In this document: positions 65-38,336 of the stretch, piece by piece | Position numbering within the stretch: the stretch's first letter is position 1 | How the letters are laid out: each line of letters starts with the position of its first letter | Assembly: GCA_030141605.1 (NCBI GenBank) | Contig: JAQGDQ010000261.1 | Coordinates: 184,708-248,707 of the forward strand | Source of the DNA: Tubiluchus corallicola | Lineage: Eukaryota; Priapulida; Priapulimorpha; Priapulimorphida; Tubiluchidae | Direction of reading: 5' to 3' | Length of the DNA: 64,000 bases | Translations under genes and position numbers: made by a program | Notes under the pieces: model-generated | Told to the model about the DNA's origin: nothing | The model's database searches: none | What the model saw: the letters and a program-made list of their open reading frames with translations, nothing else

Positions 65-391
65 AAACAACATATTTTGAAGCTCATCCTACTGGCGAGT
101 ACTTGTTCAAAGGATCATCTAAAATACTTAACTGTCAGATTGCAGAATCTTATAAAAGTCATGCTAATGTAGAATGGCTGCAAAACAATAACATTTTCTC
201 ATTAGATGCTGCCAGTAACATTAGTTATGCAGTGGAATTTGAAAGTGATCGATTGCTTACTGGCAATTATAGTATTGTAATCAGTAATATTGACATAAAT
301 CATGGTGATGGTGAATACCAGTGCAAATATACAAGTAATGTCAGTTCTTCTATAGTAACCTATTCATTTCCAACAACAGTAGGAGTTCTTG
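65..391 (+). CDS. Gene A exon: V-like Ig domain
   Basis: Exon of 327 bp (109 codons), phase 1-1, with acceptor TTTCATTTCAG and donor G|GTAAGA. It has the canonical Ig core: B-strand Cys in ILNCQIA, C-strand Trp in VEWLQ, and the F-strand motif DGEYQC. Three N-x-S/T sites are visible. It is the most N-terminal domain seen, but earlier exons may lie outside the window. I found no equivalent in gene B. Confidence 0.82.
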
Positions 392-3300
392 GTAAGAAAA
401 CTGTATCAAACATTTTCATTTTCAACAAGCATGTACAATTTCATAGCTTGTGAATACAGCAGATGGCTGCTTGCACATGTCCTAGCTGGAAATGTATTGT
501 AGCATGGCATGGGTGGTAAGCATATCAGTTAAAAGTATCATAATTGTTTTTCTAAGGTTTCAGTTACTTTTTTGTTGAGAAAGATTCTCGATTTTGCAAA
601 TATAAGCTTACTAGCCGGCACACAAATAATCATACACTAATTACTTGTAATCTTGCAGATTATTTTCATATTTTTAGTTATTTCTGCAAATGTAATTTCA
701 TTACATCTGAGTTTACCTGTTAATGTGTAAATTGTTGCCTTTTTTGTTGCAAATTCATCTAAGAGTGCTCAAGTCGCAATGTGAGCTTATAAAATAATAA
801 TTTCTCCTTATTGCAAAATTATTCCTTCCCAAATAACTCAAACATGTGTTTTTTTTGTTAATATTTGTATAAATACTTTTGGCATTTTTGGTTTACGTTC
901 TGTGTAGTGCCAAATTTTTGCCTTTCTGTGCTTGTTTAAATCCTCTTATTTAATTTAAATGTTTAATTTTATTGCAGTTGAAGCACAAAATTTCCAGGTG
1001 ACACTTGGTGACAACAATATAGCAGGTGGTACACAGACTATCATACCTAACAAAAAAAATTCTTTAGTTTGCTCCGGTGAAAGCAGTCCCAAGCCTGTTC
1101 TCACATGGTTTATTAGTGGTATGTTATTAACAACATTCTGGTCAGTTTCTTTGTAAGTTGGGTGAGGGTTTGCTCTAAGTCATGTTTCTAGATGTCAGTG
1201 CCTGGCAGTACTCATCACATTGACTTGTGCTGTTTTACATTAGTTTTGTTTTATCATTTGTGAATGGCTTAAGTCTAATTTTCAACTGTTTTTTCTAAGT
1301 GGTTCAATATTGATTAAAATATTATTTTAAGTCAAACAAAATTGAATGACATTGTAATTTTATTTTTGTTTTTCTATTGACACACTAATTTTCTTTCCGC
1401 TTATTTGCCCAAATTGTTATTGATCCAAAAATGCTTGAACACAACAAGACAGTAAATTCTCAATCACTGCAGAACTTGTTCATTCTAAAAAAATTTTGCA
1501 GCAGTCACAAAAAATGACTGTATTTATTCTCATTGAAAAAATGATGTATTCCTATCTTTACAAATCAATATTGGCATCAGCTTTTGCGTTCATTTCATCA
1601 TAATTTTGGCTTAACTTTATCTGTGTCATTCATTGCAGAATAGCATTCAACTACAGGGTGATCCAAATTAAAAACGTTCCCCCAAACTAACTCATAACCA
1701 TTCATCTTGGTACAGCTTTTTATAAAAGAGGATCACGTCAATGTATAGCTCAGTTTCTCCTCTTTCCAATTAGCTATAAACTACCTAAGCTTCCCCCCAC
1801 CAAGTGCTCATAAGACGTTTTTCTGCATGGTGGTCGTATAGAAACAGATGGCCAGTTTTGGAGGTATTCCTCCACTGTGCCTAGAGGACTTTGCAAACTT
1901 ATATCCATATAACAGCTTTCCAAACCGTCACATTATCTGCATATATCTATAGCGTTTTGGAAAATCAGAAACCAAGCTACATAGTGATGTAGGTCTCTTT
2001 TGCAAGTGCTTCTACCAGGATGAAAGTTTATGAGTTAATGTAGGGGAATCCTTTTCTGGATGACACTGTACTTTCCAGATTCAACTCGTGTGGTTAAACG
2101 TGGTCTGTAATGCCTTTTTCTCCAGACAGAATTCACGGAAGCAAAGAAGTGTATGCTGATGATTACAGTGAAGTAAAAGACTATACTACAGGACTTATAA
2201 CTGTTAGTAAGTCAATAATAGTTGACTTTGCTCATGGTCAGGATGGAGACAATGGGAAAATCTTATCCTGTAGGTTGCATGTACACGAGGCATTTGAGGA
2301 CAAATACATCAATATAACATTAAATGTGGAATGTAAGTTTGATCTCAATTTTAGTACCTGGTGACCATATATGATCACTGCGAGGTTGAACTGCATTTAT
2401 TGATACTGTTACACTTGTTCACTTAATTTATTAGTGTTATAAATTACTGTTGATTTTTGCTTTATGAGGTATATAATTCCAAGCAGAGGAATTGGTTTTG
2501 TTTTCTTTTTGTTTTGTCCGATCTTCTGTACTAAAGTATTGCGGTATTTGCCTAAAGCCAACTCCGACTCCCTTTCCAAGAGAAACAGAGTCCCAGTTAA
2601 ATTAGAATAAACAAAAATCACCTAGGGTGCGAATTTGTAACTCGTAATATGTACTGCCAATCCGCAACCCATAATAAGTACATGACATTTGGGCAGGGAT
2701 ACACTTGGGCACAAGACATTTGGGCACCAATAAAATCTGATGTTGTACCTTCCTATTTTTTATTTTTGTGTATTAAATTTTTAGTGACTCACTCAAATTT
2801 CATAACTCACATTTTTTAAAAATAATTGTTTCACAAAATTAAAACATAGCAGAAACATATGCTATAACAATTATATCTAGTCTGTTGAATGCACTTTCTA
2901 GATTTTTGCCTTAATTCAATATTTTATGTGTTGCTTTGAATGCTGCAGAAAACACCACAAATTTACATTAAAGTGAATAACAACTACGTGCACCATGAAT
3001 GAACTTCTTCACACCAAAATTTAGTGTCAGTGCAATTACTGTAGCAATTTGTCTAGTATTATATCATAATACTATATTCATTGAACACTTAGTGTACATT
3101 AGACAACCTAGAATGTGTTGTTTAGTTCACTAGTTGCTTGTAGCTAGCTCTCAACTCGAAAACGACTAGCTGAAGCAGTTTGTAAGTCATTTAAATTATG
3201 TATGTTTGTCAATATTGGGATCAACAATAATTGTAAGCATTTTTGCTGTATCTCTTACGAAATGGATGATAATATCATGCGTTCAGCAGCAGTGTTCTGA

Positions 3301-6300
3301 GATGTGTATAGTTATACTACATACTCAAGTTTTACACTCATATACACAAATATAATTATTTCTATTCATACAAAAATTTTAAATGTTACAAGGCAAATGT
3401 CCTGCCCCATTATATACTAATACGTTTTATTAATGAGAGTTTTCTGCAACATTCGATGTCTGTAGACAGTAAACAAGGAGCACAATAGACAGGTACCTGC
3501 TCACGTGATTGTTTCATAGTAACTGTTTAATAGCTCAGATAATCGATAAAGAGCACTGTTCTGTTTATGATTCGTCCAAATGAATGGCAATTTTGCTGAT
3601 TAAAACTAAAGGCTTTGCACAGTATTTACAGCATCAAGCTCGCAGCTAATGATCTGTTTTTGTTGCACAAGACAATTTATAAATGAGATAATACATTTAT
3701 ATATGTAAACAGATAGAAGACACTGAAAATCAAAGTAAATTAACTAATAATAAATGAATTTGTGCCATTAATTTGATTAATTGTTTCACTGCCAATATTA
3801 AACTGTGTTCCATTTTTTCCACATCAAACAAGACACCCATTGCCTAGAATCATGTTCCTAAAATAATGGAAAACCCCTCTGTGACAATCCCTTCACCTGC
3901 TTATGCTGTTTTAACTAATATTAACTAACATTAAACTCAGCAATCAACAGTTTGTTCATGTAAATTCAATGAATGAGTCACAAAAAGCTACACCCATTGT
4001 GCTTATTAATGAGCACACCTGCTAATTTCACATAACAACTGGTCTGACCTGCCAGTGATGTTTGAGACAGGGATTTAAGGCATACCTGCTGTGCAGATAA
4101 ATAAGCTTTATAAATAAGATAAATATATACCTAAATAAAATTAATAAATAAGGTAAGTAAGATCAAGAAAGTGCCATTTAAGCTTATCTGATTGAAAGAT
4201 AACGTGCCACACATTAGAATGCTGGCTTTGAATAGTTCGATAAACGCAGTCTGCTGTTACCTTGTAACCTGCATGAAGGCAGATTGAAAATAGCAAGCAT
4301 GCTTAATTTTGTGTAGTTAAAAATAAAAATAAAGAATGACTTTTAAAATCATTTTTATGAAGCAAGACGTCATGTCCCATGTATTGCTGTGTTTGCTCTC
4401 GTGAAAGTGAGGAGCTAGTTCTATGATATAATTAAAGCTCCACTTGAAAAACTAAAACACAACCTGTACATTGTGGCCCATAACCTGTAAACTACAGCCA
4501 ACTCTATATGGTGCGTATGCTAGAAAATGGTATCTCTTTTGGGAAATCTAACAAAAAATGAGTTATTTTAGTGTTTAGATGGCAAACTCAATTACAGTGC
4601 CATAAACTAGAATGTTCAAATTGTCATCAGGACTTCCTTTGGCACTTTGGTTGCCAGAAAAGTGTGAAAATAATCTAGAATTGCACTCTGTGTTCTTTAA
4701 GAACTGTTACACAACGGAATTTGGAAACAATTTGAATCTCTAAATGAAAATGTGAATATCTGAAAATAAAAAATGTATATTAAGAATGATTTAAAACTTG
4801 CAAAATAAAATATGTAAAGCTTTTATATTTACAGGCACACAAACCTTTCAAGCCTGTTTATTTTGCATCTTCTGTGCAATCTTGCCTAAGAATGATGCTT
4901 TTGGCATTGGCTTCCATCATTTAATCCAGCACGTGAAAAATTGTTCAGCACTTAAATATCATCGATTTAAAGCTTTATCACTAATTGCTACAGATCCACC
5001 AATGGACATTAAAGTCACATCAGATCAAGGTGAAAGCATACCACTAGGCAAAAAGATGAAACTTACCTGCCAGGTTGATGCGAACCCACCACCTGCCAGG
5101 TATGAGTGGAGCAAGGAGCCATACCCAGAGGCTAAAGATCTCCATAGGTACAACTTCGATCACAAGGAAATATTTGAGCTTAAAACTAAATATACCAGCG
5201 ATAGTGGCAACTACACATGCAAAGCAACAAATTCTCATGGAAGTACCATTGGCAGTATAAATATTTATATTACTGGTGAGTTGCATGTTCCTGCAAGCAT
5301 GGAATGGTTGCTATATAATCAAATTCCGGAAATTTCATTTTCGTTTAATCAACTTTGTTTATCAGGGATTTCTTCTTGCCTTGCTTAAGTTTTCAAAGGT
5401 TCTGTACATTTACCTAGCTAATTACACATTTCACCTAACTAATTGTTTCGGCTTCTAAGGATCCATACGAGTTAAATTTTGATTGACACTTTTAAAGACC
5501 CAGTAGATTCGTAATAGAGTAATGTTGCCTGTTGGCTTTCTCAATGCATGTTATCTATCTAATGAAAAGTTATAATAACTCTGCTCAATTCAACATTACT
5601 TGACTCAACTCTCAACTAACCTGTCACTCAAGCACCCATCCGTTCTCAACTCGCCTAAACTGAGAGTTTTGATTTCAACATTTATTTCTTTTTTAACTTT
5701 GATTCAATTTTTAATTAAAGTAAAACCTCATCTCTAGTAAATTCTCAAGTGCTGGTTGGCTAAACGTTCAGCTGCCCAGGCGTCCACTGCCCTACTATCC
5801 AAAAAGTACCACCTATGCATATATGGCACAAGCAGTACGCTGTGGTTATGCACCAAGTGTGCACTACCAAAGTGTCTCTGCTCAAATGTCCATTTTTCAA
5901 GTGGCACGTACTGCCTAAGAAACCACTGCTATAGTAAAAGCATACCGCTGCATAACTGCCCACTGTATTCATATGCTACTGCGGAACTATATATTGCTTT
6001 AGTGTTTGTAGAAACAAATAATAAAATAGTTGCCCAATCATTATAAATAGTAGCAAAACCTGTCAACTGTAATCTTATTGTGGACACTAATTGACATACA
6101 GATGTAGCAAAATGAGGAACACATAATAAACTTAAAGTCTGATTATTTGAATAACTCATTTACTGATTTTCTTGGCTCACACCTGTAACTGATTGCTTGA
6201 TTTTTTGTCAAACATTTCAGTGCTGGCAAGGTTTGAAGGTCAGCGAGTTTATTGGGTAAACCTCTACAAAGATGCCATCATCTTGCTAAATTTCTGTGAC

Positions 6301-9300
6301 CTTAAAATGTACAAAAATGCTGAGTGGCTAAGCAAGCAACATTTTAGGAAACTTTCGCATGGCAACCAAACAGGACAGGTATCATTTGATAGGTTTCGGT
6401 CAGTCATCATTCCGAGAAAAATTGGAACAAATGGATTCATATGTTTCAATGTAACTTTGTTGATAGAAAGCGTGCGCCCGACTGATCTACATGACTACAC
6501 ATTTCAAATGGAAAGTGGCGAAGACGGCAGCATCAATCAATTTTCTCTCAGCCTTTTTAGTAAGTCTGAACCTTTGCTGTTTATGGTTAACCTGTTAATG
6601 AAACTTCCCTCATTAGGAAAATGTGAATTAGTGAAAAGGCTTACTGTTCACCTGTAATCATTGATGATGTCATTGCTAGAGAATGACAATTGTTGCCTTT
6701 CAAATTTGCAAAAACTGTTTTCTGACTATAATTTATTAATTGACGATTATTTGTAGGACTGAGATTTTTGAAAAGTAGCCAAACCATCTACAGGCTTAAA
6801 TTTGTATGCACTCCTTTTGTAGAATTTTGAAACTTACAGGTCAAACCTGACTCCAGAATAATTCTGAAATCATAAGTCTCTAATACTGTTATAATTACCA
6901 TTGATCATTATGGTCAGGCTTTCTAAAGGCACATGGTTAATATTGTAGTTGTAATTGTTGTAAATGTGGTGCGAATAGCGAGTGCCAAATTGTGATGTGA
7001 ACAGCTTTCAAAACTAAATTACACTGAAGCTTACACTCGCTGTGGACATCGTTCTGTTCAGTACAGTGATTTCCTTAAAAAATGTGTATGGCATTATTTT
7101 TATTTAACTGTGTTGCACTGTGTTACATGGTTCTGTATTTTATACTGCCAGATGTGTTGTAATATATATATTCTTGCATTGCACTCACTTGCACTCCTGC
7201 CAGAGAAATCAAATGAGCCAAAAATGGCATTTAGAGCATCTTCTGATCTTGTGTTAGTAAATACTTTTGATTTAACAACCTAATTTAACAATTTTGATGT
7301 AATAATCTAAGAAACCATTTTCTGCTTTTACTGTCAAGGTAGATTAAGCAACGTTGTTCGATTTTAAAGTCATTCTAAAATCTTTAGCATCCTCACAGTA
7401 TACGCATGACCTGCCTTTGTTACATCTTTAACTCTAAAACGGTGGATACTTTTAGATAAACTTTTATTTTTTCACTTTTGTCTTCTGCTTGAATTTGTTA
7501 CAGATTACCCAGAGTTACGAAATGATACACTGACTAAATTTAATGCCCACATTGGCTATGACATCAACATAACTATGCACTTTTGTTGCTGGCCAAGATT
7601 TAAAACTGCAAAGTGGCAATTCAACTATTTTGGCCGTGATGATATCCTCATAACTGAAGTTTTGAAATCTTATCAGCAAATCGGGTATTTCTCTACTTTA
7701 AACCTTGTTGATGTAGGACTTTTTACACCGGCCCATCAAGACATCTGCCATACTGCCTGGTTGCACATTGACCATGTAAAAACTTATCATCAGCAAATAT
7801 ACGCTTTGGTTGTGAGCAACAACGAATCTCAGGAGAGCGTATTTGAGGCGAGGCTTGTTGTATTAGGTTTGCACTTTATTATAAATTTATAGTAACCTTG
7901 CCTACAATGGCTTCACACATTTAATACATATGTGGGGGATGCAACTGCATTTAGCTACTGTTCAAGTTGACCTATAAATGCAAATGACTGGTTTAATGTA
8001 TAAATGACTGATGTGGCCCGACTACCTTCCAATGAAGTTACCGTTGCACTTACATTTAGTCAGCATTGACCTAGCCGAAATCAGCTGCTTAAAAAACAGA
8101 TAACAAATGATTTGAACGTATTTGATTTATGAATTCATAGCCAGTCGTTAATAAACCATTAAGCAAAATAAGGATGTCCTTAAGGCTCAGAGGAAGAGGG
8201 GACGCATGCATTTTTTTCAAATTTAATAATTACCCAGAAGTAAAATATACTGAAATGTGTGTGGCAGTTTCTGCGTTTGTTTACTATATGGCAATATGGA
8301 TGGACACTTTGATTTCGTTTTACAGTTTAGTATTGCTTTTATTCTCCATTATACATATATATGGTCCACACACACACACACACATGCACGCACACACACA
8401 CACACACACACACCACATATATATGGTACATTAATCTTTTCAGTGCTTAAGGCCTCTTGAGGTCTTAATTAATCCGGCCCTGTTCATAACTCAACTTATC
8501 TCAAACACAGGGTCATTTCACACTTCTGACATTTTCTACGATGTCCTTTTTGTCCTCAGTTATGTATTAGAGAAATTGCAAATTATGTAAAAAATGTCAA
8601 ATTGCCATACTATTAAGCATCCATGTACAGATGTACATGTATATGGTTAACTTGCGAAGTCGACCAACTTTTGTATACATGCTCATTGAAATCAAATTAT
8701 TATTATTTGAAAATGAAAATGTTTGTTATAATGGCATAAATCAAAGGTTTTGACACTAAAGGCCACAGTGTAGTAGTGCAAGTTGTAAGGGAGGCATGTA
8801 AATTAAAGTAAAAAGATGTTATTGACACAATTTTATACAATGCCTCAGTGTTGTGACTGGCAGCAACTGCACTACAAGTAGTCTGCTTTGAACAACACTG
8901 TTAGCTTGTATAAACTGTTTTTTACAATGTACTAAACAGCCAAAGGTTACCTTTTATATATAAATAGAGCTAAGTTCCACACTGCAATTGTCCTTAGAAT
9001 ATGTTGTGTTTTGTTTCCCTCGGAAGGCTCGTAGAGAAAACCAGAAAACACGCCGTAAAATAAAACTACTTTATTTAGCGAGAATTCTACTACACAAAGA
9101 ACGAGAAATGATTATACTAAACGTGAAAATCTGGAAAACGTTTAATATGTAAGTATTACATCTGTGAGATCTGCGTGCTCTGTGTGCTGTGTGCAGCCTG
9201 CTTCTCCTTATATAACGCGCTGTAGAAACTTCTCGAACAAATGTTCGAGAACAATCCAGACAGTAAGGCGGTCATTCCGAAGGAGCATTCTACGATGTTC

Positions 9301-11000: not shown

Positions 11001-11202
11001 ACCATTCTGCAGGCTGTACATGATATTTGCTGCTAATAATGTGCAACCTCAGAGCATGTAAATAAGATGCATAATTTTAACTACACAGCTAATACACAGA
11101 GTCGCCTAAATGAACTCATCTATTATGGCAGGCAGTTCCCTTGTAGTTTATTTATTATTTCATTGTTTTTATTACATTTGTGTAAATTAAGCTGGTGTGT
11201 AA

Positions 11203-22180: not shown

Positions 22181-22249
22181 ATCCCAGTCTTTTGAGTTTA
22201 AGTAGTTTCTTATAGCTGTATAATCTGCTCTGTAAAAGTTATATTTCTT

Positions 22250-22911: not shown

Positions 22912-22929
22912 CAGTTTTACATTTTTATT

Positions 22930-23757: not shown

Positions 23758-24818
23758 TGTATTTTGAACCCATTGCTCATACCACTGACTGTCTGCGACT
23801 GGTGTAAGCCCATGTATTTTGATGCTACTCTTTTTTGCCTTTTTTGCATTCGTTCATTAAAATCTTTGTACTTTATGACGTACATCAGTGTAACCACGTG
23901 TAGATCTCTATGTATAAAAATATAGAATCAATTGGGCGGAGTTATTTGAGTCAATTGCAGACAGTTTTTATATACTTTTGCATAGGAGCGACCAGTACTT
24001 GCGACACTTAGGTATCATGTATCCTTGTTAGTTGGGTATTTTGAATTATGCATGAAACAAGGTAACTTATATTTTAAGTCCACTTAGAGGCTGTCTATGG
24101 TCACAAAATGACAATTTGTTGCTGGCTCCAAGGGGGCTCCCTTGAACCCCATAGGGGGCCTAGGTGGCGCCAAAACCCCCGGCCTGTTTCAGAGTTTTTT
24201 GCAATTTGTCATTCTCATCCCTGCAACTGCAACATTATGATTTGCTCAGTTGATATTAACTAATGACGGGGTATATATTAATAGGTAATAAAAATACCAA
24301 GAGGCTTTGCTGAAACAGTACAAAAAAGTTTCTCTTTGTTAGTATACAGGAACACCAGATAGCTGTGCCGCAAATTTAGATTGATTAATTAAACCTGAAT
24401 ATTTTCCTTTTGTTCCAAGAACATAATTTATGGCTGTATGCATGCCTTCATTAACAATACAACTACTAAACAGAAAAATCAAAGACTAATTGAAATAATA
24501 GGAGCAGTTATAAAGTACAAAACGTAATAAAAAAAATTACAGAACCATGAAAAATTACTCATGAAAGAAAACTTCTCATTTGCCACATGAATTAATTTTA
24601 ATTACACTTTTGTCAGTCAAGTATGGTCAGTGATTAAACCGAAATATTCTGTTTTAAAAAAATCTATTGACTTAGCAGTGGTAATGCCTGATTTTATCAA
24701 CAAATTATGCTTCTCTTGCAATATTTTATTCAGGCTAATATAAGAGCTAATTTGTAATCATGTTTTTACTTACTTACAATGTGCAGTTTTCTTGGATAAC
24801 ATTGTAATTTTGTTTCAG

Positions 24819-24890
24819 TTTGGCCAATTTCAAGCTTTGCCAGTACAGACCCTCCTTTACTTGATGTAAATTCAGCTGACAGTGATCCAG
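24819..24890 (+). CDS. Gene B: tentative small upstream exon
   Basis: Exon of 72 bp, phase 1-1 and open, with acceptor TTTTGTTTCAG and donor CAG|GTAAAG. It encodes VWPISSF...TDPPLLDVNSADSDP, which is no recognised domain. Splice sites and phase fit gene B, so it could be a linker or propeptide after the signal peptide. It could also be an alternative 3' exon of gene A, or chance. Confidence 0.35.
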
Positions 24891-27800
24891 GTAAAGTATT
24901 GTATATCACTGTCATGTTCTTGCCTTTGAGGCAGTGGGTGCCAGGCTAAAGACATTTTCAAACTGCCACCTATTGTTTGCAGTAGCAACAACATCATTAA
25001 TTTCTAAATTGACTTAGATCATCAGCATGTTTAGAATGCAATCATTCAATACTTAGAGTCAATGTACAGTGAATACGTAATATAGTTAGAGATGTTAACA
25101 ATAACGATAATCGTATGGATCATTATTGATCAACGTATCGGTATGAAAAATTTGTTTTTATCGATTTTATTCTAGAAATATCGTTGTCATATCGAATTTG
25201 GCACTTGTCGCTTGCCTTTTAAAATTGCTTCATTTTTCTTTTTTATTTATTTATACTTTATAGTAATTATGCAAAGATGTGTACAAAAAGAATTATTTAA
25301 AACTATAAGCTTGTCAAACACCGAATCATTATCTTGTACTTTTGCCTGGCAATCATGGCTATCTTCATTCTGAACAATACTGACAAAGTATAGAGACCCT
25401 TTTTATACACTTTGATGCTGATGCGCGGATGTCAAATACGCTGTACCGTATTTTTATTGTCACTTTCCTGGTCATGTGCAGCTCGCACAAATAAAATATC
25501 TTACTTACTTATGAAGTATCATGACAAACAAACCTTTTTCATAATTAGCAGCGATTTAAGTGTATATAGCACTGAATGCACTGAAGCACTTAATCATTTT
25601 AATTATTAATACTTTTTCTATTGTTGTATAAATTGTCTGACTTCAGTATTGTTTTTATCGCTCGAAATAAGTTTTCATATTGTATCGTATCATATTGCAT
25701 CGTCTAAAAAAATGTTTATCTTTATCATATCATTGGAAAACATATCATATCGTATCATTATTGTATTGACAAATTAGAATTGTTTAACATCCTTATGTAT
25801 AGTAACATCTTCCACATGCAGTAATCTAAAAAACTTATTACTCCTTTCAACTTATTGGTAGTACATTTATTTATTTAACTGATTATACCTAATGAGTGTG
25901 TAAACACAGCAGACTTGCTCTTTTATGCAATATCTGAGTGGTCATAGTGTACACTTAGTGGTTGTTGACCAAACCAACAATGTTGAGTCTTGTCTGCTTT
26001 ACTACCTCGGCTGCTTAGCTTTGTTCAGAAAGAATGTAAACATTTCCCACACGTGTCCAACACCTCTGTCTGTTCGTTATGTCATCCTATGTACATGTAG
26101 AGAGATTATCTTTGATTAATAAATATGTTCCGGCCCTGCCCAACCATGTACTTTAAATGAGTGCATTAAACCACAGCTTGCAGAGTGCTGAACTTTGTAA
26201 AAAAGATTCAGTAACTGATTGTCTTGCTTCACATAAATGACAAAAAAATCATAAGGTGGCATGTAGGACTTGGTGGTCTCAACTACCGTGTTTACAAAAC
26301 TTGTTTCCTGAGACATTTTCCCAAAACAAAAAATCTGAAAGGTAAACATCTGATATTATGGGCTTTCCTTGTAGTTCTTCATGATCAAGTATTTACCTTT
26401 GGAACTTTCCAAAATGTGATTGCTGTAAATGACAGCAAGTTATGGTGCAATAGTAAAAGTAGATTTCTTGTTAATTTTGTCATGTATGCATGTTATTTTA
26501 ATAGTTTATGTGTTTTGTTTAGACTAATTAGCTCACTAATGTCCCTTTTCACAGTTCCAGCAGTAATACAGAATATTATAGTGGATGGTACTCCTGTATT
26601 ATCCAATGCAATTACTATCGAAGGAGATACAACTGCAAGCGTGAAATGCAGCGCAAATGGCGGATATCCTAAGCCTTCCATCCTGTTTTATATAGGTATA
26701 TAATCTACACTTTATTGTGTTATACGCTCAAAAACACATTTTCTTTGTACTATGAAAACTATATTCTCTGTAAATTTACTTAAATTTGTGAATGTAGAAC
26801 AGTATTTTTATGACGTAGGTCAGGCAATGGAGACAACTATAACTTTGATAAAGATAACAGTAATTGCTGGGCAGTTTTTTTAAGGGGACACTATCTCACA
26901 TGGTTTTTGAGAGGTTAAAAGCAATTGTTCTGCTCACGCTTGCTAAGCAAACGGAAAAGCACGTGAATGAAGGGCTGTGTGGTTTACTCAAAAAATTTTT
27001 GCCTGATTTTGAATCATTTAATATTATTATCCAGCAGAATGATGAATGTATTGACAATCATTACATTTATTCTAGTTTTGCAAAAATTTTCTATTTTGCT
27101 ATGAAATTTCACAGACCTATAGAATTGGAAGACCCGAACATCATACATGTTAGAGTTTTAAAAAATTTTCTCAGGTTACCAGCACTTTCTATTCAACTGA
27201 TGCAAGGGCAAAAGCTCCTGAATAAATATTATTATCTTTGAGTCTATAATAGAGCATTACGTTTTTCTCTACTTACAAGATATTTTAAAAAATACCGATA
27301 GCAATCATGCCGTACAATTACGGTTACTAAAACCTCAGTTAAGATATATTATCACAAAATTTAAATAATGATAACGCGATAATAATCTAATGCTGTTTTT
27401 CAAATATTATAAACATTTAAAGTTTTTGGTCGGTACGGGATAAGAACTTCGGAAACAGGGTTCAGGACGGTACTAAATGTTTGAGAATGGGGTTCGGGAT
27501 TGAGGGTTGTAATCATAACAACTCTGATCCCGAACACTACTAGAGGTAAGCAGTTTAACAGAAATTTGAATTTACAGACTGTATTTGAATGGTAACCATT
27601 TTGGAAATGATTTGCTGGTGACCATGTTGAAAACGATTTGGCTAGGTTGAACTCAAGGGATTCAGGGTTGCAAGTTCTATAAGTGTGCATGTTTTATGAT
27701 TTTGTTATCTTATAGGGAAGTACATGTTTATCTATCAAAGTTTTTGGTGGAGGCAGCCACAACTTGGTTGCCATTTTGTAAATGTCAAAGTGACAAAGCA

Positions 27801-30800
27801 ATGAAAGAAATATAGGAAAATCAACCAGTGTACCATCTTAGGAATGCCATGAGCAGAAAGTGTGCAAAATTTTATGTTTGTGTTGAATTTCTTTAATAAA
27901 ACTGCTAATACATGCAGGCATGCATCTAGCAAGTATTTTAGAAAAAATAATATTTTCAGCCACATTGGCTAAAATCAAATATAGCTTTATATAGAATTAA
28001 TCAGCATGTCACGCTGTGCGAAGTCAAATGGATTTGATTATGCATAAGGTAAAAATAAAATTGATAAATTGCAAATTTCTGTGGAGACCCTGTTGCAAGT
28101 TAAGCTATGTTTAGGTTTGTTTAAGGCTTTCCATATATGCGTGGCATATATATGTATGTTGCACAATAGGACTGTGATGTACAGATTGACTAAAGTGTTT
28201 TACCTGCTGTGAACGTACTAAACTACCTTGTAATCAGCATATTCTTGTCACTTCTACAGGGTTCTTGTCATTGTTGACGTGTTGTGAAATGCTGTCTAAG
28301 GGTTAAGATTAAAGAGTAGGGCTGATTCGGATTAATGATTAAAATTTGGGGCTGATTGATGATGATTGTAAGGTTAGCAATTACTTCCCATTATACAAAA
28401 GTAGATGTGTTAAAATGAAAAGCATCTACTTGTCCTTCTGTTCAGAAATCTTTTGCATATCAGTCAAATGCACTCTTATGTAAGCCTGACTATGTAAATC
28501 AAATTGTTTGAAAAGTCATCCATTGAAATAGTTGATGACCTTTGACCTTTTACTTAAAACACATTGTTATCATTTGTTTATTCTCCATATTTTGTTTTCA
28601 AATCATTTGCAACAAGTTTGCAGTATTCGGCCTCATGGCCTGGGCTGGATTATCCTATAGGTTAGTATAAGCCGCAACTTAGGGCCCCTCAAGCTTGGCA
28701 GCGTATTTGCATTGCTGAATAATTCGTTTAATTTAAAATAAAATTTAAACTCTAAAAAAGGAGGCCAGGAAGTATGAAAATCCAATTTTAAAGTGACTCC
28801 TCATGAGAAAAGATCCCTGTTTGAGGCCTGTATTTTGAGATTTTGAAGCCTTTTTTTGAAATATGGGGACCCATATTTAGGGACCAAAAATGTTGCTGGA
28901 CTATATCACTAATAAAAAATATTTGAGTCAAATGCGAGCAAACAGTGATTTCATAGAGGAAAACAAAGGTATTTGCACCCTTAAAAACAGATTTTTCACA
29001 TCATTCATACATTTATGAATATGTTAATTTGTTAAAGGATTTGTTTCCAGTAGCTTACCGTGTTTTATAGCTGACAAAGAGCTTTCCGACGATGGAACAG
29101 GGACTGTTGAAGAAACAAAGGATGTTGATACTGGTCTGTGGGATGTTTCTAGCACAGTCAGTATTAAGTTTCTGTCTGGTAACAATAAGCATCATGGAAA
29201 AACAATGAAATGTGAAGTGTCGCAAGCAGGACTTGAGCTTCAGTCTATAATTAAAATGCTGAATATCACTTGTAAGTTGAAAATATCGCAAAAATTTTAT
29301 TACTCAAAACTTGCGATACCAAAATCTGAATACCATTTGATAAGAAAGCTACAGAGGCTTTCTCAGCCGCCACTCTGCAGCCCCTGTTTTTGAGCCTGAT
29401 AGCTAGTTTTGGCACCAAACATCTCATATATTTTAATGTGGCATTTGTGTGTTTAGACAGTTTCACTCTTACTCTTCCAATTAAATTCTATAATTACCTT
29501 AACCTTATCCTTTTTTAAGTTTCATATATATTTGAAAATCAAAATTTTCAAGGACTGTATATTATGACATCATTGCTACAATATGATGCATGCCCAGAAC
29601 TTCTATGGGCACCTCAAAACTGGTATAAAATGGTCTTGAAGCAGTGGAAAAACGCATTCTTGCCCTAACGAGCAGCTATCGAAGTACTACCTGGTAAGTA
29701 CTAGTTAGTATTCTCAATATAGGATCATATAAATATACAGCTCAATATAGGCTGGGGAAATATGTTTCATATATGCCTGAGCAAGTAGCAAGAATACTAC
29801 TGATAGACACAGTTCACATTGCTGGGAAACTACGTCCTATATAAGCTTGGAGCAACCAACACTCTCACACTGCTTACATCCACAGATCTATTCTGTGAGT
29901 GTGAAGTTGCCTTTTGCTAGGCTGAGGAACTTAAGGTCTATGTTAGCCTATTGAATTTATCACACTAGTTTGAGGAGAATGTTAAACTTTCAACATTGAA
30001 TACCTACAAATTGCAAGTCATAGCATGATTATTTACTCGCTCTTGTTTGCTGTAGGATACGAGTTATTCAGTCACAACATTCACTACACGAGGATTTACA
30101 GGAAGACAAATTCCAAGAGCTAGCTACTAGTTCAGCCTTCATTCCTGTCTGAAAACCCAAGGCTGCAAATACCGACATCATATTAAAATTATTCATTATT
30201 TCTTATTTTAGCATAAAAGCAAGATAGTTATGTAAAAGCAATCATTTATGTATGATGCAATAAACGTGTGAAACGTATTTCACTGTTCTGCATTTTATTC
30301 TTGCTGTTGACTAGTTGCCTGAAAATGGTTTAACACAAATGAACCCAAACCATTCTGCAAAAGAGTGCAGTCTCATGAAATGACCCTAATGTTAGTGGTG
30401 TATTCTAGACCCGGCACAGTTACATAAAGCCAATGTTCCTGAATTGGTCTCCCTTTGTACGGTGAATGCCATATACTGACATCAGCTTGAGGATTGTCTT
30501 TTGTCATTCTTTATAGTTGTTTTCTTTACTACTAAAATGGTCGAGTATTTTGTCTGAAAATTAATTTGAAATTTTGAGTGAGTTATCATTTTTCATATTT
30601 TTTACACAGTTTGGCGCATACTGCCAGCCAAGATTCCAGTATTCAACAGCAGTTCATACTTAATGTTCAGATCATCTGACAGTACATCTGATCCACCTGA
30701 ATCAGATACATACACATCCTCCCAAAATGAGAGAAACAGCTGGGATGGCATGGCACCTTAATAAAATTTTCTAAGCATTGTTCCCACTAGTTATTCAGCC

Positions 30801-33800
30801 ATTATTTTACCTACTGCTTATTATGGTCTCACCAGATTGTGTCAGATAAAGCATAAGCGTTATAGTATATGGTGTCTGATTAGTTCTGTTTACTTGTATG
30901 TTAATGTATCATGACACTAGCTTAAATAGCATTAATAGTTTGTTTGTAATAGATTAATAGCATTAATTATTTGTAATAGATTTCCGTGCGGACACTTTAC
31001 TCGTTGAACTGCTTGGTGATCATGTACGTCCTCACAACCAGTTGCCAAGTGGAACAAAATTGCACTTGAGATGCTTTGTAGATGCCAATCCAACACCAGG
31101 TTTTAACTGGAGCACTCCAAATTTGGGGTCATTTAGGGGTACCCAAGAACTTGCTAAACTAAACATTTCATCAGATCACACTGGAAAATACACTTGTTCT
31201 GCTGGAAATGAGTATGGACAAGATTCAGATTCAATATATGTTAAGGTTACAGGTAAGTTTATGCCCTATGTTGTTAATTAAATTAATTGTTATAAGAAAA
31301 ATATAATAAAATTATTATTGAATTCAAATGTTATAAAAAATGTCAGATTTTAAAATAATCAATATTCTCATAACGGTAAATGAAATATGACAATTGACTG
31401 TAGTTATATAAAGCATGTCGATCTTTGTTGGATTTAAATTCGTGAACATTTAAGAACTAGTATTTTAGGAGCTTATATTTAAGAACTACCAAATATTTCA
31501 AAATTGGCCATACTGACCTTCCAAAATATTTGTGTATACCTATAATTTTTTTATTTTTACTGTAGTTCGGTTTATGTGTTTATGTGCATGCTAGCTTAGT
31601 TCTAGTTGTTTTAGAACACATCATTTTATGAATCTATGAATGGGTGATATTTACACAACACATTCTGGATAGATTTGGCAGAGCCAATAATCTTTCATAT
31701 TTCAAATAACAAAAAGTCGTATATACTGCTAGTTCAAAATTTTATATATGCTAGTTCAAAATTTTAAGGTTTTATCATTTTTGAAAAACCTAATTAAGGC
31801 TTTGCTGTTTCAAAATGGATAGGGGGTAAATTTTGCAGCATGATATTAGAGCATATTTCGTGTCCTTTGATCCGCTTGATTTTTTTGACGTCGCATCTGT
31901 AGCAAAGACCTTCATTTTCCGAAAGTTCTATCATTTCTATAATTTTTGAATAAAGGAGCTGCATGATTATAGAGAATGATACTAAAACATTATGAGGACT
32001 GGAGCTAGGACGCAGAATTATAGAGTTTTATGTCACGTCATAATTTTCAAAATCATAGAGATGACATGGATCTATTTTGAAAACAGCTACTTATATCTTA
32101 TTATTAAGACCATTTTTTCATCACTAAGGGGAATAAATCTGTTAGCAGATGTGTTCTTATTCTCTAACATGAAAATTATCTCTCAGTGATCAGCACTATT
32201 TAAAGCATCCATTTATCCCTATGGCTATTGTATGCTGTGAGTCTTACCATCAGCCTGTCATACAGGATTTTGTCCAGTTTTCAACCAAATGTATCCATTG
32301 TTTCATATGCTTCTCTCTGTATTACCTGTTTCATTATATTTGGTGTGAATTATTTAATAATCACTTACATTTGTGTAGCTGGTGGCACTAATTACATGTA
32401 ATTCAAGTTACATTGCAGCATTGTGTCTACAGAACCATTTCAGAATGACACGTGTGTATCGTATGCCTTTTTCAGATATCATAGTTATTACGGGTCCAAC
32501 AGAAATTTGGACTGCTCTGTATAAAGATACTGAATTTGCACTCGAAACTTGCTATGTAAGGAATTTGAGAAAATTTAAGTGGCTAGTGAGAGGTCGTACG
32601 CTTGTACACAAAAATCCAGGAGTCGTGAAGAATGGCAGATATGTATCCGTGCTAACTAGTGAAGTTGGTCAGCGTGTCGGTGCTAATTGCTATCGAAGTT
32701 TCTTTACCATTAGAGACACACAGCCAGTAGATATAGCTGCCGTTGCTCTCATTGTAGAAGGGCAAGAAGGAAATGCAAAAGACGAAAAAACTGTTGAGTT
32801 AAAATGTGAGTGAATGTCGTTTTTTTCATTACAGACTATCTATAGTTTCTTAAATATACAAAAATTTACTGTGTGCCAAATGACAAAACAGAATTTTACC
32901 AGAAAATAAAAAAGAGTGCTTGCATTAATAAAAATATCCTGCTTAACACTTACAGCAGTTAGTCTAAGTAAGTAATTAACTGAAGAAGAAGGCCGTGGAA
33001 AGTTGAGTCAACCAGGACTTGAACCCAAAACCTTATCCTTTCAAGACATACATTCTGCCATCTAAGCTACTGACTCAACGGGCAGAGCTGATCTTAACTG
33101 TTATCCCATCAATACACAATCAATCAATCAATAAATACTCAATAAATAAATAAAGCAAACCTACCTATCCACTACTAGTGACATATCAGTGCATTTAAAT
33201 ACCATCATTAATTTAATGAGAGTCAACTTGTAAAAATTTGCACTTGCACCATTCTATAGGGTATCCACACATATACATGTGATTTGAACACCTAGACAAA
33301 GTTCTTGATAGCTTTTCCAAATAAACAGGTTTTAAAGACTTACTGAAGCATGCCAGTATCTTAGCTTTGTGATACTGCCTATCATTACAATATAACTTAG
33401 CAACACGAAATTAAGGCGGCGAGATATGGACAGTAGATTCGTCGAGAAAGTAGATACGACAGCTATAGTAATGTCTACTGACAATTTATTCTACTAGACA
33501 GATAGATTTTATACACCCATACACACGTAGAGGTGCGAAACAGTATCACCATTTAAGATTCTAATAGGCCATCCTCGAAGGCATTCAAAACTTGCTACTG
33601 AGCACTAATAATGTAGAAAGTGGCACTGACACAGTAAAATTTGATGATATCAAGTGTCGACATAACTTACTGCAGATCAGACAAATCATTAGCTGACACC
33701 TATCAGAGAGACAGCAGTAATTATCAGATACAAATGTGAAAGCTGAACATCTGTGAAACATCTAAGCTTTAATTAGCAAGTGTACAGTGGCTTAGCTCAG

Positions 33801-36800
33801 CATCATCATGCTCTTTATAAAAGACAGCCAAAGCATGATTTAATAAAAGTACCAGTAATATTACTAGTCTGTCAAGCATGGCGTAATAAAAAATGTAATG
33901 TTACTACATCCTTAACATCCTTTAAATAATACTAAGATCATGATGGAAAAGTTTTAGCATTTATTGCACGATGCACAGATATGTGCAGTCATACAGTAAT
34001 TAAATTGAAAGATATCAGATTTCTCAGCAGAGCTTTTCAGTGTCTACTTCTGCAATTATATCAAAATATTAAGTGAAAGCACATAACTAAAATTGTTGCT
34101 GGAAGCAGCCATGATTGTAGAGAAAATAATCAACCAAACTATCAAAAACTTTCAGGACAGATCCAAAACATTCGGACCAGACCATAGTTCAGTATACCTT
34201 AGACATCCACGGCTGGGAGACAACAATATGCTTTTGAAGATTCTTTAAAAACAGTTAAGTATACTTACCCCTGCAGCATGCTGAGAGTCATTTATTCCTC
34301 TAGGGTAGGACTGCTTTACCTATTAATTTGAAAGATGAGATAGAAGCCCACACTGTTAGTAATATTGTATATGAATTTATTTGCAATTGTGGAACCTAGT
34401 ATGTGGGCCATCTCAAAGACTGATCGTTAGAGTGAAAGAACACATACCAGTATGAATAAGAACCAAATCCACAGCCGTTTGAACTCAACCAGATAGAAAA
34501 GCAAAAGTAATTCAGCTACAAACCAAGACAAAGCCACTTCTGCTATAGCCCAGCATCTACACAACAATCAGTCAGGTAATTGATTCAGATTTCAAAATTA
34601 CATACAAGTGCAGATCAGATTTTCATCTTAAAATTTTGGAAGCAATAATCATAAATTTTAAAGACCCAATTGTATGTAGACAAAAAGAACATGTTACTGA
34701 ATATAGTCCTAATTTTATTCAGTAACAAACATGGCTGCTTTCAGCAACAATTTTAGTTTTGTGCTTTTACCTAATATCTTGATATAATTGCAGAAGTAGA
34801 CACTGAAAAGCTCTGCTGAACAGTCTTATGTTTTTCAGTTTTGTTACTGTATGACTGCATATACCTGTGCTCTGTACAATAAATGCTGAAACTTTACCAC
34901 CATGGTCTTAGTATTATTTAGAGCATCCTTAACATCCAAAACAAAACATCTTTATCCCAAATAATTGCCTGCTTATCCTTATTTACCGGGATTTGTCTGT
35001 ATTATGTGATATAATAGTGGCTTGAAATTACCATTAATCGCTATATAATTGTTTCTACTTACTTGTGTGTGGAATCAGAGCTCTGAACAACTCTAATGAA
35101 ATCAGTTTCATTTATTATTTCTAACAGGTGAACCTACATTAGTACGAGGATCAAAGAAGGAATTTTTTGGTTTTATCGCATATGATGTAAAAATAATATT
35201 AGAATTTTGTTGTCATCCCATCTACAAATCAGTGAAGTGGGAATGGTCAGACGGTGTTATTGACCTTACAGCAAATTCTGAAGGCAGTTTTAAGCAACGT
35301 TTTCTTGCGTATGTTCGTGCCTCACACAGCTTCAGGTATCGAGACTATAATAGTTCCATTACACCTTCAGGAAGTAGGTGCTATACTGCTGGCCTTACAA
35401 TATTGTCTGCTGAACCATATCACTCACAGACATATCAATTATTTGTAAACAACAGAGAGAAGGATGCAGTTTTCAATGCAAAACTTTATCTAACGGGTAA
35501 GTTATTATATTATCTCAGTTAAATTCATTTTATCTTGGGGTGGTCTACAAAATCCTGATCAGTTTACAAAGGCTAAGTGTTGTCATCTCAGATCATCAAG
35601 TGCTTTCATAGAGAAATGTGAATTACTGGACTTACAAAATGAAATACATATGTGACACTTCAGTCTTCGTAGCAACTCCAAATAAAATTCACCTCACAGG
35701 CAAGAGACTCACTCACATTTGCAGACTTCTCGAGCTAATATCACAAGGTTAAACATTGTTTCAATAAACTCCATTTACGCTATACAAGAATGCTCAATTC
35801 AGACATTATAGACAACAGAGAAAAAACTGCTCATGCTCTTAATTGCCACCACAGTAACATACAATCATTTTTGCCTTTATGCTTGCAGCATCTCTTACAT
35901 GATATGTGTACATTTAATTTGTTTGTTATGTTCATGTTATAAAAAAGTACTGAGGTGCTCTAGCAGTACACACTTCTGCTGTGTAGGGTTATTAAGATTG
36001 GGATTATTTAAATGCAGTGTTTTATGCAGCATTATAAGTTTTTATTTTACCAATCAAGCAATTTCATACAAGCCCATGCTATTGTATGTGTAATTGTAAC
36101 AGTTTTAACAGCTAGTTAGAACCTTACCTTGTCCATTTATCTTGTTCCCGAAGCCAAGATCCTGCTAGTAAATCACTCTAGATCATCTAGACTAATGCAT
36201 AATGAAGCAAAATCCATGTAAAATAACAAGGAAATGGCATCGCAATTGAACTTACTGAACTGATGTGGGAGACAGCTTTGCCTTACCCACATGTCACGTG
36301 ACCATTGTAGTTAAGACGCATTGCTGGGTTTCACTTAACTTTTGACCTACAACAACTGCACGTGTACATAGCAAAACTGCGAAAAGGCTTATTTACCAAT
36401 AACCATTCGACAATGGAACGATGCAACCCAACTCTCACTGTTTTTTTATTCCAATGCTCTTTAGCATTCTTAGCAAATAAATTTCTTCATTCTACATTTG
36501 AAAATAATGTGAGTGTTCGTGTTGTAAAGTTTTCATATCATATACAATTGCCATCCATGGGTGGATAAATCCTACTAAAATGAACTAATCTGATTGACAC
36601 ACAACAGTCAGTTTTTATTTGCTTTTTAGTTGCTTTACAGACTGCAGTGTTATTTTTTTTTAGATGGGCCAGGACTTCTTGCACGACAACTTAGCATCTC
36701 ATTCGGTGTTTTGATCCCTCTAGCTATAGTAGCTATAGTTGCCTTTGCTTTTGCCAAGAAAATATGGTGCTTTAAATGTATGTATTATTATTGCCACTAT

Positions 36801-38179
36801 CGCTTACTTTTATAAAACAAACTTTAGCAGCATTTGCATTACTTGTCAGGTAACACTAACATTAATGTAAAACTTGATGCCCATAATTTTTTAAAAAATG
36901 TATCAGTGTTTTAAATTGCTGTTGTAGTAGAAATTGGTTTTCATGTTTAGAGTTGTTGTAATATTGCAGTCGCTAAAGTCCTTTTTTGTCCAATGCTGCA
37001 TTTGCTATTTTTTTCATATTTATTCACCCATGACTGACAATATCATCCTTATTCTATTTTTGTTAATATAATTTAATTATAGATCAATTTATCTTACATA
37101 TATATGTATTTATTTCACTAAATTTTTTTTGGCACTATAAGCTTCAAATTATGAAACTTGTTAACTATGATCCAAAGTGAAACTAATTAGTGGGTACATC
37201 TTTTGTAATTTGTTTTTGCTACATGTAGTTACTTGTTGGGGGGTGGGGGAGAAATGGCACAATTGTGGGAATAGGCTTAGTTGTGGGAAATCCATACTTA
37301 CAGAAAAGCAGGATACCACAAACCCTTTAAATACTGAAAATCTATACTATTTCAAATAGTTTTAATCTGAATATTTTAAAGAGCTGATTTATACACCTGT
37401 GTTACAACTATGGAAATTTTGAAACATCTGAATTTTTTGCAGCACGAACTGAAATAAGGGAAGAAACGCCTACTGTTCTTACCACAGCAGTTCCAACTGC
37501 TAGACGGACATCCTTAGCTTCGACTCTTGTAATGATGCAGCCAGCCTTTCCTACATCAGATGTGACTGGTATAGCTCAACCATATGTTCCTATGGTAGGA
37601 ACCACAGTAGTTGGGGCACAACCACCTATTGCCCCTCTTCCGTCTGTTAGTCTAACTGGTATAGCTCAACCTATTGTGTCACCTAGTCCAGCAGGAGTTG
37701 TGACATCATATGTCCCAATGAGTGGTACGACAGCAGCTGGGGCACAAACTTTTGTCCCTTCATCTAGAACCAGTATTACTGGAATAGGACCTTTGGTTGC
37801 CTCGCCTACCCCAACTAGTGTCATGCCATCTTATGTTCCCATCACAGGAGGCTGGACACAACAACAGTTTGCCCCTGCCCACAGGACTAGTCTCACTGGA
37901 GCAGTACAGCCGATTGTTCCCATTACTACTGGAAGTCTGACTGCATTTCCACAAGCTTCAGTGCAGATGGTGCCTGTTGGTAGTGTGATGGGAGTAACGC
38001 AACCTATGACACCAGTTGAAGTGTCAGCAGAAATGCTACCTGCAGAACAGGGTCAATCAGACACTGCTCCACTTCCTCCCATTAGTGAAACCCCACGACC
38101 AGAAGATGGTTCTCAGTTGCCAGAAGAGATATCTACTAGTCAAGAACAGGAACGATCAGTCAGTGCTCAAAAGCAATAA
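24819..38179 (+). CDS. Gene B: paralogous Ig-superfamily receptor with YVPM/TGI repeat tail
   Basis: Exons: 24819-24890 (tentative), 26555-26695, 29071-29271, 30980-31252, 32476-32805, 35128-35496, 36664-36777 and 37443-38179. All are phase 1 with good GT-AG sites. From the split Ig domain onward the order matches gene A exon for exon, so the pair arose by tandem duplication and has diverged far. About 744 residues are visible. I found no V-like N-terminal domain, no signal peptide and no start codon. These may lie upstream among the repeats at 13-24 kb, or gene B may truly be shorter. The protein should be a type I receptor with a repetitive signalling tail. Confidence 0.85.
25087..25795. 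mobile_element. hAT-like MITE rich in ATCG/CGAT
   Basis: Ends TAGAGATGTTAAC and GTTTAACATCCTTA are imperfect TIRs. Flanks AATATAGT (25079-25086) and TGTATAGT (25796-25803) match at 6 of 8 positions, consistent with an aged 8-bp duplication. Both subterminal regions carry many TATCG/CGATA words. Confidence 0.5.
26555..26695 (+). CDS. Gene B exon: first half of split Ig domain
   Basis: Exon of 141 bp, the same length and phase as its gene A partner. B-strand Cys is in SVKCSANG. The C-strand Trp is replaced by Phe (SILFYIG). Acceptor CTTTTCACAG, donor G|GTATAT. Confidence 0.78.
26696..29070 (+). other. Gene B intron, 2.4 kb
   Basis: Includes a 125-codon open stretch at 26864-27241 without recognisable similarity and a possible transposon end near 28,640-28,900 (CTGGATTATCC, GGGCCCC). 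No assigned gene. Confidence 0.35.
29071..29271 (+). CDS. Gene B exon: second half of split Ig domain
   Basis: Exon of 201 bp, phase 1-1, with acceptor GTGTTTTATAG and donor T|GTAAGT. It contains the F-strand Cys in TMKCEVSQAG. The preceding intron (26696-29070) is 2.4 kb. Confidence 0.75.
29272..30979 (+). other. Gene B intron, 1.7 kb
   Basis: No coding signal or clear element seen. Confidence 0.4.
30980..31252 (+). CDS. Gene B exon: I-set Ig domain
   Basis: Exon of 273 bp, phase 1-1, with donor G|GTAAGT. Canonical: LRCFVDANPTPGFNWS, then D-H-T-G-K-Y-T-C-S-A-G-N-E-Y-G. Best-conserved domain with gene A. Confidence 0.87.
31253..32475 (+). other. Gene B intron, 1.2 kb
   Basis: AT-rich; nothing recognised. 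Confidence 0.4.
32476..32805 (+). CDS. Gene B exon: non-canonical Ig-like domain (relocated cysteine), first of two
   Basis: Exon of 330 bp, phase 1-1, with donor T|GTGAGT. B-strand Cys in ALETCYV, Trp in FKWLV, E strand ANCYRSFFTI with its own Cys. The F-strand position reads AAVALIVEG with no Cys. Same layout as 6221-6559. Confidence 0.75.
33004..33076 (-). ncRNA. tRNA-like sequence (probable tRNA-derived pseudogene or SINE head)
   Basis: 73 nt that follow standard tRNA numbering: 7-bp acceptor stem GAGTCAG/TTGACTC (one G-T pair), T8, A14, G18-G19, A21, anticodon stem with 4 of 5 pairs, T54-T55-C56-R57-A58. A box TAGCTTAGATGG and B box GGTTCAAGTCC. Positions 34-36 read TGA (Ser), but the variable loop is short, unlike tRNA-Ser; a one-base shift gives GAA (Phe). 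The D stem has a C-A mismatch and wobbles. Outside the acceptor stem pairing continues three more pairs (GTT/AAC). Likely not a functional tRNA. Confidence 0.5.
33920..34923 (+). mobile_element. Penelope-like element remnant with inverted 194-bp arms and 13-bp target duplication
   Basis: Two ~194-bp arms (33920-34113 and 34730-34923) are inverted copies, about 90% alike by eye. CATCCTTAACATC flanks both sides (33907-33919 and 34924-34936). The 0.6-kb core encodes, with frame breaks, the C-terminal part of a Penelope-like polyprotein: LGDNNMLLKIL, then VYEFICNCGT-YVGHL of the GIY-YIG nuclease, then RVKEH and a C-terminal ITYKCRSDFHLKILEAI...C-R-Q-K-E. Inverted terminal arms and variable-length duplications are known for this group. 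The reverse transcriptase is missing, so it is non-autonomous. Confidence 0.75.
35128..35496 (+). CDS. Gene B exon: non-canonical Ig-like domain (relocated cysteine), second of two
   Basis: Exon of 369 bp, phase 1-1, with acceptor TTTCTAACAG and donor G|GTAAGT. B-strand Cys pair in LEFCCHP, two Trp in VKWEWS, E strand SRCYTAGLTI, F-strand region TYQLFVNN without Cys. Confidence 0.78.
35497..37442 (+). other. Gene B introns around the transmembrane exon
   Basis: Two introns (1.17 and 0.67 kb). No other feature recognised. Confidence 0.4.
36664..36777 (+). CDS. Gene B exon: transmembrane segment
   Basis: Exon of 114 bp, phase 1-1. Stalk DGPGLLARQ, then a hydrophobic stretch (LSISFGVLIPLAIVAIVAFA...) and the juxtamembrane KKIWCFK shared with gene A. 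Confidence 0.85.
37443..38179 (+). CDS. Gene B terminal exon: cytoplasmic tail of ~40-residue TGI/YVPM repeats
   Basis: Acceptor TTTTTTGCAG, then about 244 residues to TAA. Three to four tandem copies of a ~40-residue unit: TGIAQP...YVPMVGTT, SLTGIAQP...YVPMSGTT, SITGIGP...YVPITGG and a diverged SLTGAVQP copy. YVPM at 37583-37594 and 37709-37720 and YVPI at 37832-37843 are visible. YVPM matches the known p85 SH2 target consensus Y-x-x-M. The C-terminus is Glu/Gln/Ser-rich. No enzyme domain; probably disordered. Confidence 0.85.
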
Positions 38180-38330
38180 CTACCTGTTTACAGTTTCCCC
38201 TCGGAGTATATTATTTTTTCTAAATGGTTATAAAAAGTGCGCCAGTATGTACATTTTCTATGAAAGTTGCATGTAGTGTTACCTAAAAATGTTGCACAAA
38301 TTAACTTTGCATTTAATGATGAAAACAAAA

Positions 38331-38336
38331 AATAAA
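38331..38336 (+). terminator. Gene B poly(A) signal
   Basis: AATAAA about 150 bp after the stop codon. Confidence 0.6.

Follow-up and report, generated by a model that had tools for sequence, protein, structure and literature searches.

The window analysed here, 64,000 nucleotides long, corresponds to C1958:184708-248707 of a 343.5 Mb assembly comprising 2344 contigs. It contains two genes, A and B, which lie in tandem on the plus strand ∼15.5 kb apart. Gene A spans positions 65-11000 of the window, with its 5′ end outside, and gene B was modelled at 26555-38179. Within the window, eight exons with AG/GT borders were modelled for A and seven for B; every internal exon of both genes is a multiple of three in length, and all modelled junctions are in phase 1. 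The exons amount to 849 (A) and 714 (B) stop-free codons, which would be expected by chance with probabilities of ∼2e-27 and ∼4e-23, respectively, at the base composition of the window, values that disregard the selection of the exons for openness. The layout common to both genes consists of a C2-set Ig domain, an I-set Ig domain, two unusual Ig-like domains (odd1 and odd2), a transmembrane (TM) helix ending in KKIWCF, and a repetitive tail. In either protein, the single TM helix leads through basic residues into a cytoplasmic tail, which fits a type I receptor of the Ig superfamily (IgSF).

Gene A additionally has two V-type Ig domains. The second of them is encoded at 65-391 (phase 1/1) and scored 24.3 bits with V-set (3.8e-05), below the Pfam cut-off of 26, and 24.9 bits with V-set_CD47, above the cut-off of 21. 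The exon encoding the first of the two precedes the window, at C1958:184053-184370 (phase 1/1, E 2e-5; the likeliest of three donor choices). They are followed by the two halves of a split C2-set_2 domain, the first (978-1118) scoring 20.6 bits, just below the cut-off of 21, and the second (2126-2332) resting on the exon model and the alignment with B, and by an I-set domain (4994-5275; I-set 4.7e-17, Ig_3 1.4e-23 over the whole protein). Domain odd1 (6221-6559), Ig-like with a putative B-E cysteine pair, was delineated through domain alignment, covariation, and tree, and odd2 (7504-7866) through domain alignment, genome search, and covariation. The TM exon (9588-9707; exon model and shuffle tests) precedes the last exon (10207-11000; exon model), which encodes an S/T/P/V-rich cytoplasmic tail of 263 amino acids and the stop codon. 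The Pfam profiles exceeding their cut-offs in A were Ig_3, I-set, Ig_2, ig, and V-set_CD47.

In gene B, also on the plus strand throughout, the split C2-set_2 domain occupies 26555-26695 (first half) and 29071-29271 (second half), with an E-value of 1.3e-06 across both, and the I-set domain 30980-31252 (2.7e-09). Domain odd1 (32476-32805) is again based on domain alignment, covariation, and tree; odd2 (35128-35496), a V-type Ig and the sole domain for which a structure was modelled, is based on genome search, structure model, and fold comparison. The TM exon (36664-36777; exon model and shuffle tests) and a last exon (37443-38179; exon model), encoding a repetitive tail of 244 amino acids with the motifs YVPM, YVPM, and YVPI and the stop codon, complete the model. 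The profiles Ig_3, I-set, Ig_2, and C2-set_2 exceeded their cut-offs in B. A counterpart of the V domains was not recognised for B in exon-profile scans of window and contig. For its signal peptide there is one weak candidate, a putative first exon at 18248-18293 on the plus strand with a Met, a short hydrophobic stretch, and a phase-1 donor, derived from two overlapping matches of a crude scan. The same order of exons, which the sequence-only reading had assigned to both genes, is thus present from the C2-set to the tail, but it does not extend to the two V-type exons, which were recognised in A alone.

Several other features were noted at this locus. Between the two genes, on the minus strand, a LINE-type retroelement is present in several broken frames (20093-23853; reverse transcriptase and an upstream frame, classified by eye), and a second reverse-transcriptase-like fragment, of different appearance by eye, lies on the plus strand at 50621-51794. 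A tandem array of a 42-base unit (∼43 copies, 86% matches) occupies 61493-63269, and frames resembling it recur at C1958:254511-256115. Two short, S/D-rich frames starting with V-W-x-I were seen on the plus strand behind acceptors that look good by eye (24819-24890 and ∼30612-30761, the latter within an intron of gene B); they are possibly exons of another transcript, or due to chance. Rfam and tRNA scans of the window found a single tRNA-like match, on the minus strand at 33002-33077. Upstream of the window, two short collagen-like frames on the minus strand (C1958:126032-126862 and 150422-151219) start with C-x-C-P-P-G-P-P-G. Near the end of the contig, one frame, which we take to be junctophilin-like, occurs twice in inverted orientation (C1958:312565-313425, minus strand, and 318464-319324, plus strand; L024 and L025), the copies being equal in length and in their first 160 residues; this duplicate may be an assembly artefact. 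A frame of this kind might hint at a bilaterian source; a search for COX1 returned no match.

The proteins encoded by A and B align at E 2e-55 with 192 identities in 731 columns (26%), an alignment that takes in the low-complexity tail. When the exons were aligned pairwise and compared with 500 shuffles each, z was highest for odd2 (24.9), followed by odd1 (15.3), I-set (14.2), TM (10.9), the second half of the split Ig (8.9), the tail (4.2), and the first half of the split Ig (2.8). Six of the seven pairs beat 500 of 500 shuffles; the first half of the split Ig did not. Judged by these alignments, homology between A and B is solid in five of the seven exons; the tail supports it less strongly, and the exon that opens the split Ig only weakly. 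The earlier description of the locus as a tandem, same-strand pair of strongly diverged IgSF receptors built from phase-1 exons is therefore confirmed by the exon models and by the degree of identity.

Searching the genome with the odd domains yielded 19 places for odd2 of B (E 1e-3), 8 for odd2 of A (E 0.01), and 39 for an odd domain of a paralogue on contig C1492 (E 0.01), the query's own place being counted each time. Their union comprises 43 places on 28 contigs, 37 of which scored E 1e-3 or better at least once; the remaining six fell only between 1e-3 and 1e-2 (C1432, both places on C1457, C2196, C2157, and C1492:6295). Once same-strand places less than 6 kb apart were merged, 36 gene-like groups remained, which include at least two redundant copies in the assembly. 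C156, C1309, and C1753 (L039, L040, and L041) match each other exactly over 615 bases of a family member and probably represent a single locus that was assembled in triplicate; C2157 and C2196 gave equal search scores, a statement on scores and not on sequences. Because of such redundancy, a careful count arrives at ∼33 loci, which is a lower bound, as only the best candidates were scored. With 43 related places, A and B are not single-copy genes within their own genome, and their proposed membership in a multigene family of IgSF receptors is borne out.

The odd domains are recognisable by the signature F-C...W...C-Y-x-A-x-L-x-I and otherwise differ widely, the median pairwise identity being 22% (820 pairs, 41 rows). 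Among 39 distinct odd domains, 36 contain both cysteines and 3 neither, and none contains one alone; the pattern of cysteines and Trp was intact in 36 of the 39. Read as a V-type Ig, the odd domain appears from this covariation to have a cysteine bridge between strands B and E (positions 27 and 84 in odd2 of B) in place of that between B and F. The structure model of odd2 of B is a V-type Ig (30 of 122 residues with pLDDT below 50; the five models averaging between 49 and 63), which was compared by fold with Foldseek's top 1000 chains, all aligned and 50 rows of them listed. The same domain had no Pfam match at E 0.1. Across the 39 domains, matches at this threshold were to I-set (14), Ig_3 (13), V-set (9), and the NK receptor 2B4 (2). 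Titin, DSCAM, CEACAM1, and other Ig stretches, and no specific relative, were found among the best 60 of 326 PDB matches of the odd-domain profile. A crude scan for splice sites around 35 paralogous odd exons returned acceptors of phase 1 in 13, phase 0 in 2, and phase 2 in 4, and donors of phase 1 in 26, phase 0 in 17, and phase 2 in 10; nine exons had both a phase-1 acceptor and a phase-1 donor. The scan is in agreement with the phase-1 rule suggested by A and B, short of proving it.

Related TM exons, in phase 1 on both sides, were located downstream of the odd domains on C1492 (FFKKIWCCK), C1170 (INKGMCF), and C1247 (INRKWF). Pairwise scores of the TM exons exceeded 400 of 400 restricted shuffles for A-B, A-C1170, B-C1492, B-C1247, B-C1170, and C1247-C1170, and were reached by 1 of 400 shuffles for A-C1492 and C1492-C1170, while those for A-C1247 (22/400), C1492-C1247 (59/400), and five pairs involving C1432 (24 to 191) were near chance. 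With C460, only the pair with C1170 was nearly clear of chance (2/400). Within ∼1.5 kb downstream of 12 paralogous loci, TM-exon candidates were seen in three (C1492, C1432, and C460:468k) and in none of the other nine; C1247 and C1170 have one further on. The candidates on C1432 and C460 are not shown by these pair scores to be TM exons of the family. The motif KKIWC was likewise dismissed as a genome-wide tag of the family, with 71 matches of the DNA pattern versus 73 for the reversed control. Two of the 69 matches other than those in A and B were opened: C1492:37739 is the TM exon, whereas C1230:42954 is not one.

The tails did not serve as a family tag either, as that of B had no match in the genome at E 0.01 other than itself. 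On C1170, a repetitive V/A/S/P frame lies past a phase-1 acceptor downstream of the TM exon and is perhaps its tail; on C1492, the 3.7 kb behind the TM exon revealed no recognisable tail exon. All three tyrosines of the B tail are part of Yxx[LIVM] motifs (YVPM, YVPM, and YVPI; p 0.014 versus shuffled tails), and, being copies of one repeat, they are not independent of each other. Two of the six tyrosines in the A tail are in such motifs (YDTM and YVNL), which is no enrichment (p 0.48). Neither ITIM nor NPxY was found in the two tails, nor was a paired, ITAM-like Yxx[LI], the only sites being YxxM and single Yxx[LI]. As the B tail is unmatched elsewhere, each branch of the family may signal differently or use its tail as a tether only.

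The fact that a TM-exon candidate was missing within ∼1.5 kb downstream of 9 of 12 loci could mean that the 43 places include many decayed or incomplete copies and that the family consists mostly of pseudogenes. A further decayed piece lies upstream of gene A, where the first part of A's I-set exon recurs in degenerate form at C1958:182889-183209 (L017), a relic of an exon duplicated locally. Against such general decay stand the cysteine/Trp pattern, as it is retained in nearly all odd domains, and the absence of internal stops from every listed odd-domain match, although the latter is not decisive, because the search favours open frames. A family made up largely of remnants is, on balance, highly improbable.

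In the sequence-only reading, the window had been proposed as the possible edge of a larger cluster. Scanning C1958:64708-319723 (255 kb of the 320 kb contig, with N stretches at ∼248.7-253.5 and 265.9-268.4 kb; C1958:1-64707 lies outside the scan) with exon profiles and frames of at least 25 residues, no third member of the family was recognised, and neither did a profile of 41 odd domains detect a further one over the same stretch. Beyond A and B, the scan brought up just the upstream V exon and the degenerate I-set piece, and within the window no more copies of their exons were recognised. Elsewhere in the genome, the members occur as singletons, pairs, and small groups: pairs lie ∼20 kb apart on C480 and C2025 and 8 kb apart on C1457, and most places are single. 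A larger cluster is, therefore, not supported at this site, and the family is dispersed rather than densely clustered as far as the assembly shows; many of the other 27 contigs with members are short, so that the assembly could hide linkage.

This distribution bears on the proposal that the family governs allorecognition or immunity in the manner of the Alr complex of Hydractinia, with polymorphic distal domains and signalling tails that decide between self and nonself. The tandem arrangement and divergence of these IgSF members, their unusual Ig domains, and their long tails behind a TM helix are in line with the analogy. The lack of a cluster in 255 kb of C1958 and the spread of members over 28 contigs argue against it, as does the lack of a close second allele of odd2 of either gene in the assembly, in which the next-best matches were 33% (A) and 35% (B) identical. 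An Alr-like system is, on balance, unlikely, and an immune or allorecognition role is one of several possible readings.

How the members are related was addressed with a tree of 39 domains, which was rooted at midpoint and has long end branches, an unsettled bootstrap, and 18 open branches among 36 inner ones. The odd1 domains of A, B, C1247, C1492, and C1170 group together (99/90), and their sister is a domain on C460 located behind an I-set exon (99/92). The odd2 domains of A and B are sisters (87/88, under the tool's mark for strong support). In contrast, odd1 of A is not firmly grouped with odd1 of B, and the tree flags the latter and odd1 of C1247 as long branches meeting. The odd1-odd2 pair is also present on C1170 and C1492, and C1247 carries I-set, odd1, and odd2 in the same order as A and B. 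The split between odd1 and odd2 would, thus, seem to predate that of the genes, and, if odd2 alone is considered, A and B seem to be each other's closest relatives.

Close but non-identical pairs of odd domains were restricted to two among the sequences fetched. The pair L047/L049 differs by 7 non-synonymous and 4 synonymous changes (dN/dS 0.48), the pair L055/L056 by 18 and 4 (dN/dS 1.34). In the latter, 18 of 22 changes alter the amino acid, and the exon is, by eye, more different than the sequence just behind it. The former pair shows constraint and the latter is perhaps relaxed or diversifying; the counts are too small for more.

The ratio for L047/L049 would also suit a family employed in adhesion during development or neural wiring, in which many diverged IgSF pairs label cell types, as Dpr/DIP and Beat/Side do in insects, and which takes no part in immunity or self-recognition. 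Contactin, Robo, nectin, and DSCAM were among the 60 PDB matches listed for A, beside titin and others (the best E-value, 2.9e-14, was to contactin-4 in the I-set region), the Pfam order of V, C2-set_2, and I-set is that of nectins, and the members are dispersed rather than clustered as far as seen. However, the low median identity of the odd domains found here, together with tails that are not conserved, amounts to more divergence than would be expected of such families, and the ratio for L055/L056 points the other way. We regard a pure wiring role as possible, if rather less than probable.

The reading we consider probable is that A and B belong to a large and old family, dispersed in the genome, whose members are type I IgSF receptors serving recognition, either between cells or between cell and nonself. 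What can be read from the sequence itself is the domain order, the phase-1 exon modules, the core of odd1, odd2, and TM helix common to several members, and the family as such. In this recognition family, the distal V, C2, and I domains would engage a partner exposed by another cell, or else a foreign ligand, and odd1-odd2, as V-type Ig domains with a B-E bridge, would form a conserved membrane-proximal stalk, which may also pair receptors side by side. The basic-aromatic-Cys end of the TM helix (K-K-I-W-C-F or near) could be palmitoylated, and the long, probably disordered tail would carry the signal. YxxM-type sites have the form of docking motifs for the SH2 domains of PI3-kinase p85, and B perhaps signals via its three repeated YVP(M/I) sites. 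New members would arise through duplication of whole genes, both locally and to distant sites.

Large IgSF families often house the recognition systems of animals, be it allorecognition, immune receptors, or neural identity codes, and the odd-domain signature is a handle with which members can be retrieved from a genome to ask about their polymorphism and expression. Should the relocation of the cysteine be confirmed, the odd domains would, after those of the Siglecs, provide a second example of rewiring inside a single sheet of the Ig fold, in this family retained in 36 of 39 domains. Nothing recognisable as this family came up in the literature searches, which do not prove that it is undescribed. 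A bolder version of the recognition reading, which we put forward only tentatively and hold to be rather doubtful, would see here an undescribed, lineage-specific system of some thirty or more dispersed and fast-diverging IgSF receptors, with a new B-E subtype of Ig as tandem stalk, variable distal V/C2/I domains, and private repetitive tails, dedicated to the recognition of self versus nonself or of pathogens.

Among known systems, nectins combine a V-C2-I ectodomain that binds in trans with an afadin-binding C-terminus (E/A-x-Y-V). Nectins, nectin-like proteins, and PVR have the order V, C2-set_2, I-set in common with the distal domains of A, and nectin-1 matched in one stretch across the C2 and I-set domains of A (chain residues 108-311, E 1.5e-10). 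They differ in that A has two V and two odd domains and B the order C2-I-odd-odd, neither being an exact V-C2-I. Moreover, A and B lack a C-terminal PDZ/afadin motif (they end in ESIDSD and SAQKQ, respectively) and have a long repetitive tail and dozens of paralogues.

The V-set domain of Siglecs such as sialoadhesin and CD33 has an intra-sheet disulphide between strands B and E instead of B and F, with F or L at the position of the F-strand cysteine. The odd domains are alike in this residue and, as far as covariation indicates, in a putative B-E pair. Their cysteines, however, are placed one residue later on strand B and two earlier on strand E, the position of the sialic-acid-binding arginine on strand F is Arg in just 1 of 39 odd domains, and they are membrane-proximal, whereas the V-set of Siglecs is outermost. 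For Siglec-15, a bond linking its two sheets is described in PMC10264397.

An invertebrate case is CgIgIT2 of the oyster, an IgSF receptor with several extracellular Ig domains, a TM helix, and a tail with a classic ITAM, according to the review PMC11999971; A and B have the Ig domains, TM helix, and tail in common with it, but neither an Yxx[LI] pair nor an ITIM. The Alr genes of Hydractinia form tandem clusters of many members, and their alleles, which are highly polymorphic, govern fusion and rejection; two members were recognised in 255 kb here. Compared by description, as given in PMC11067881 and PMC11999971, the Alr genes are a multigene set of type I IgSF receptors, with V-set and I-set domains called unique and low identity between members, and in their type I architecture, multiplicity, and divergence they resemble the family of A and B.
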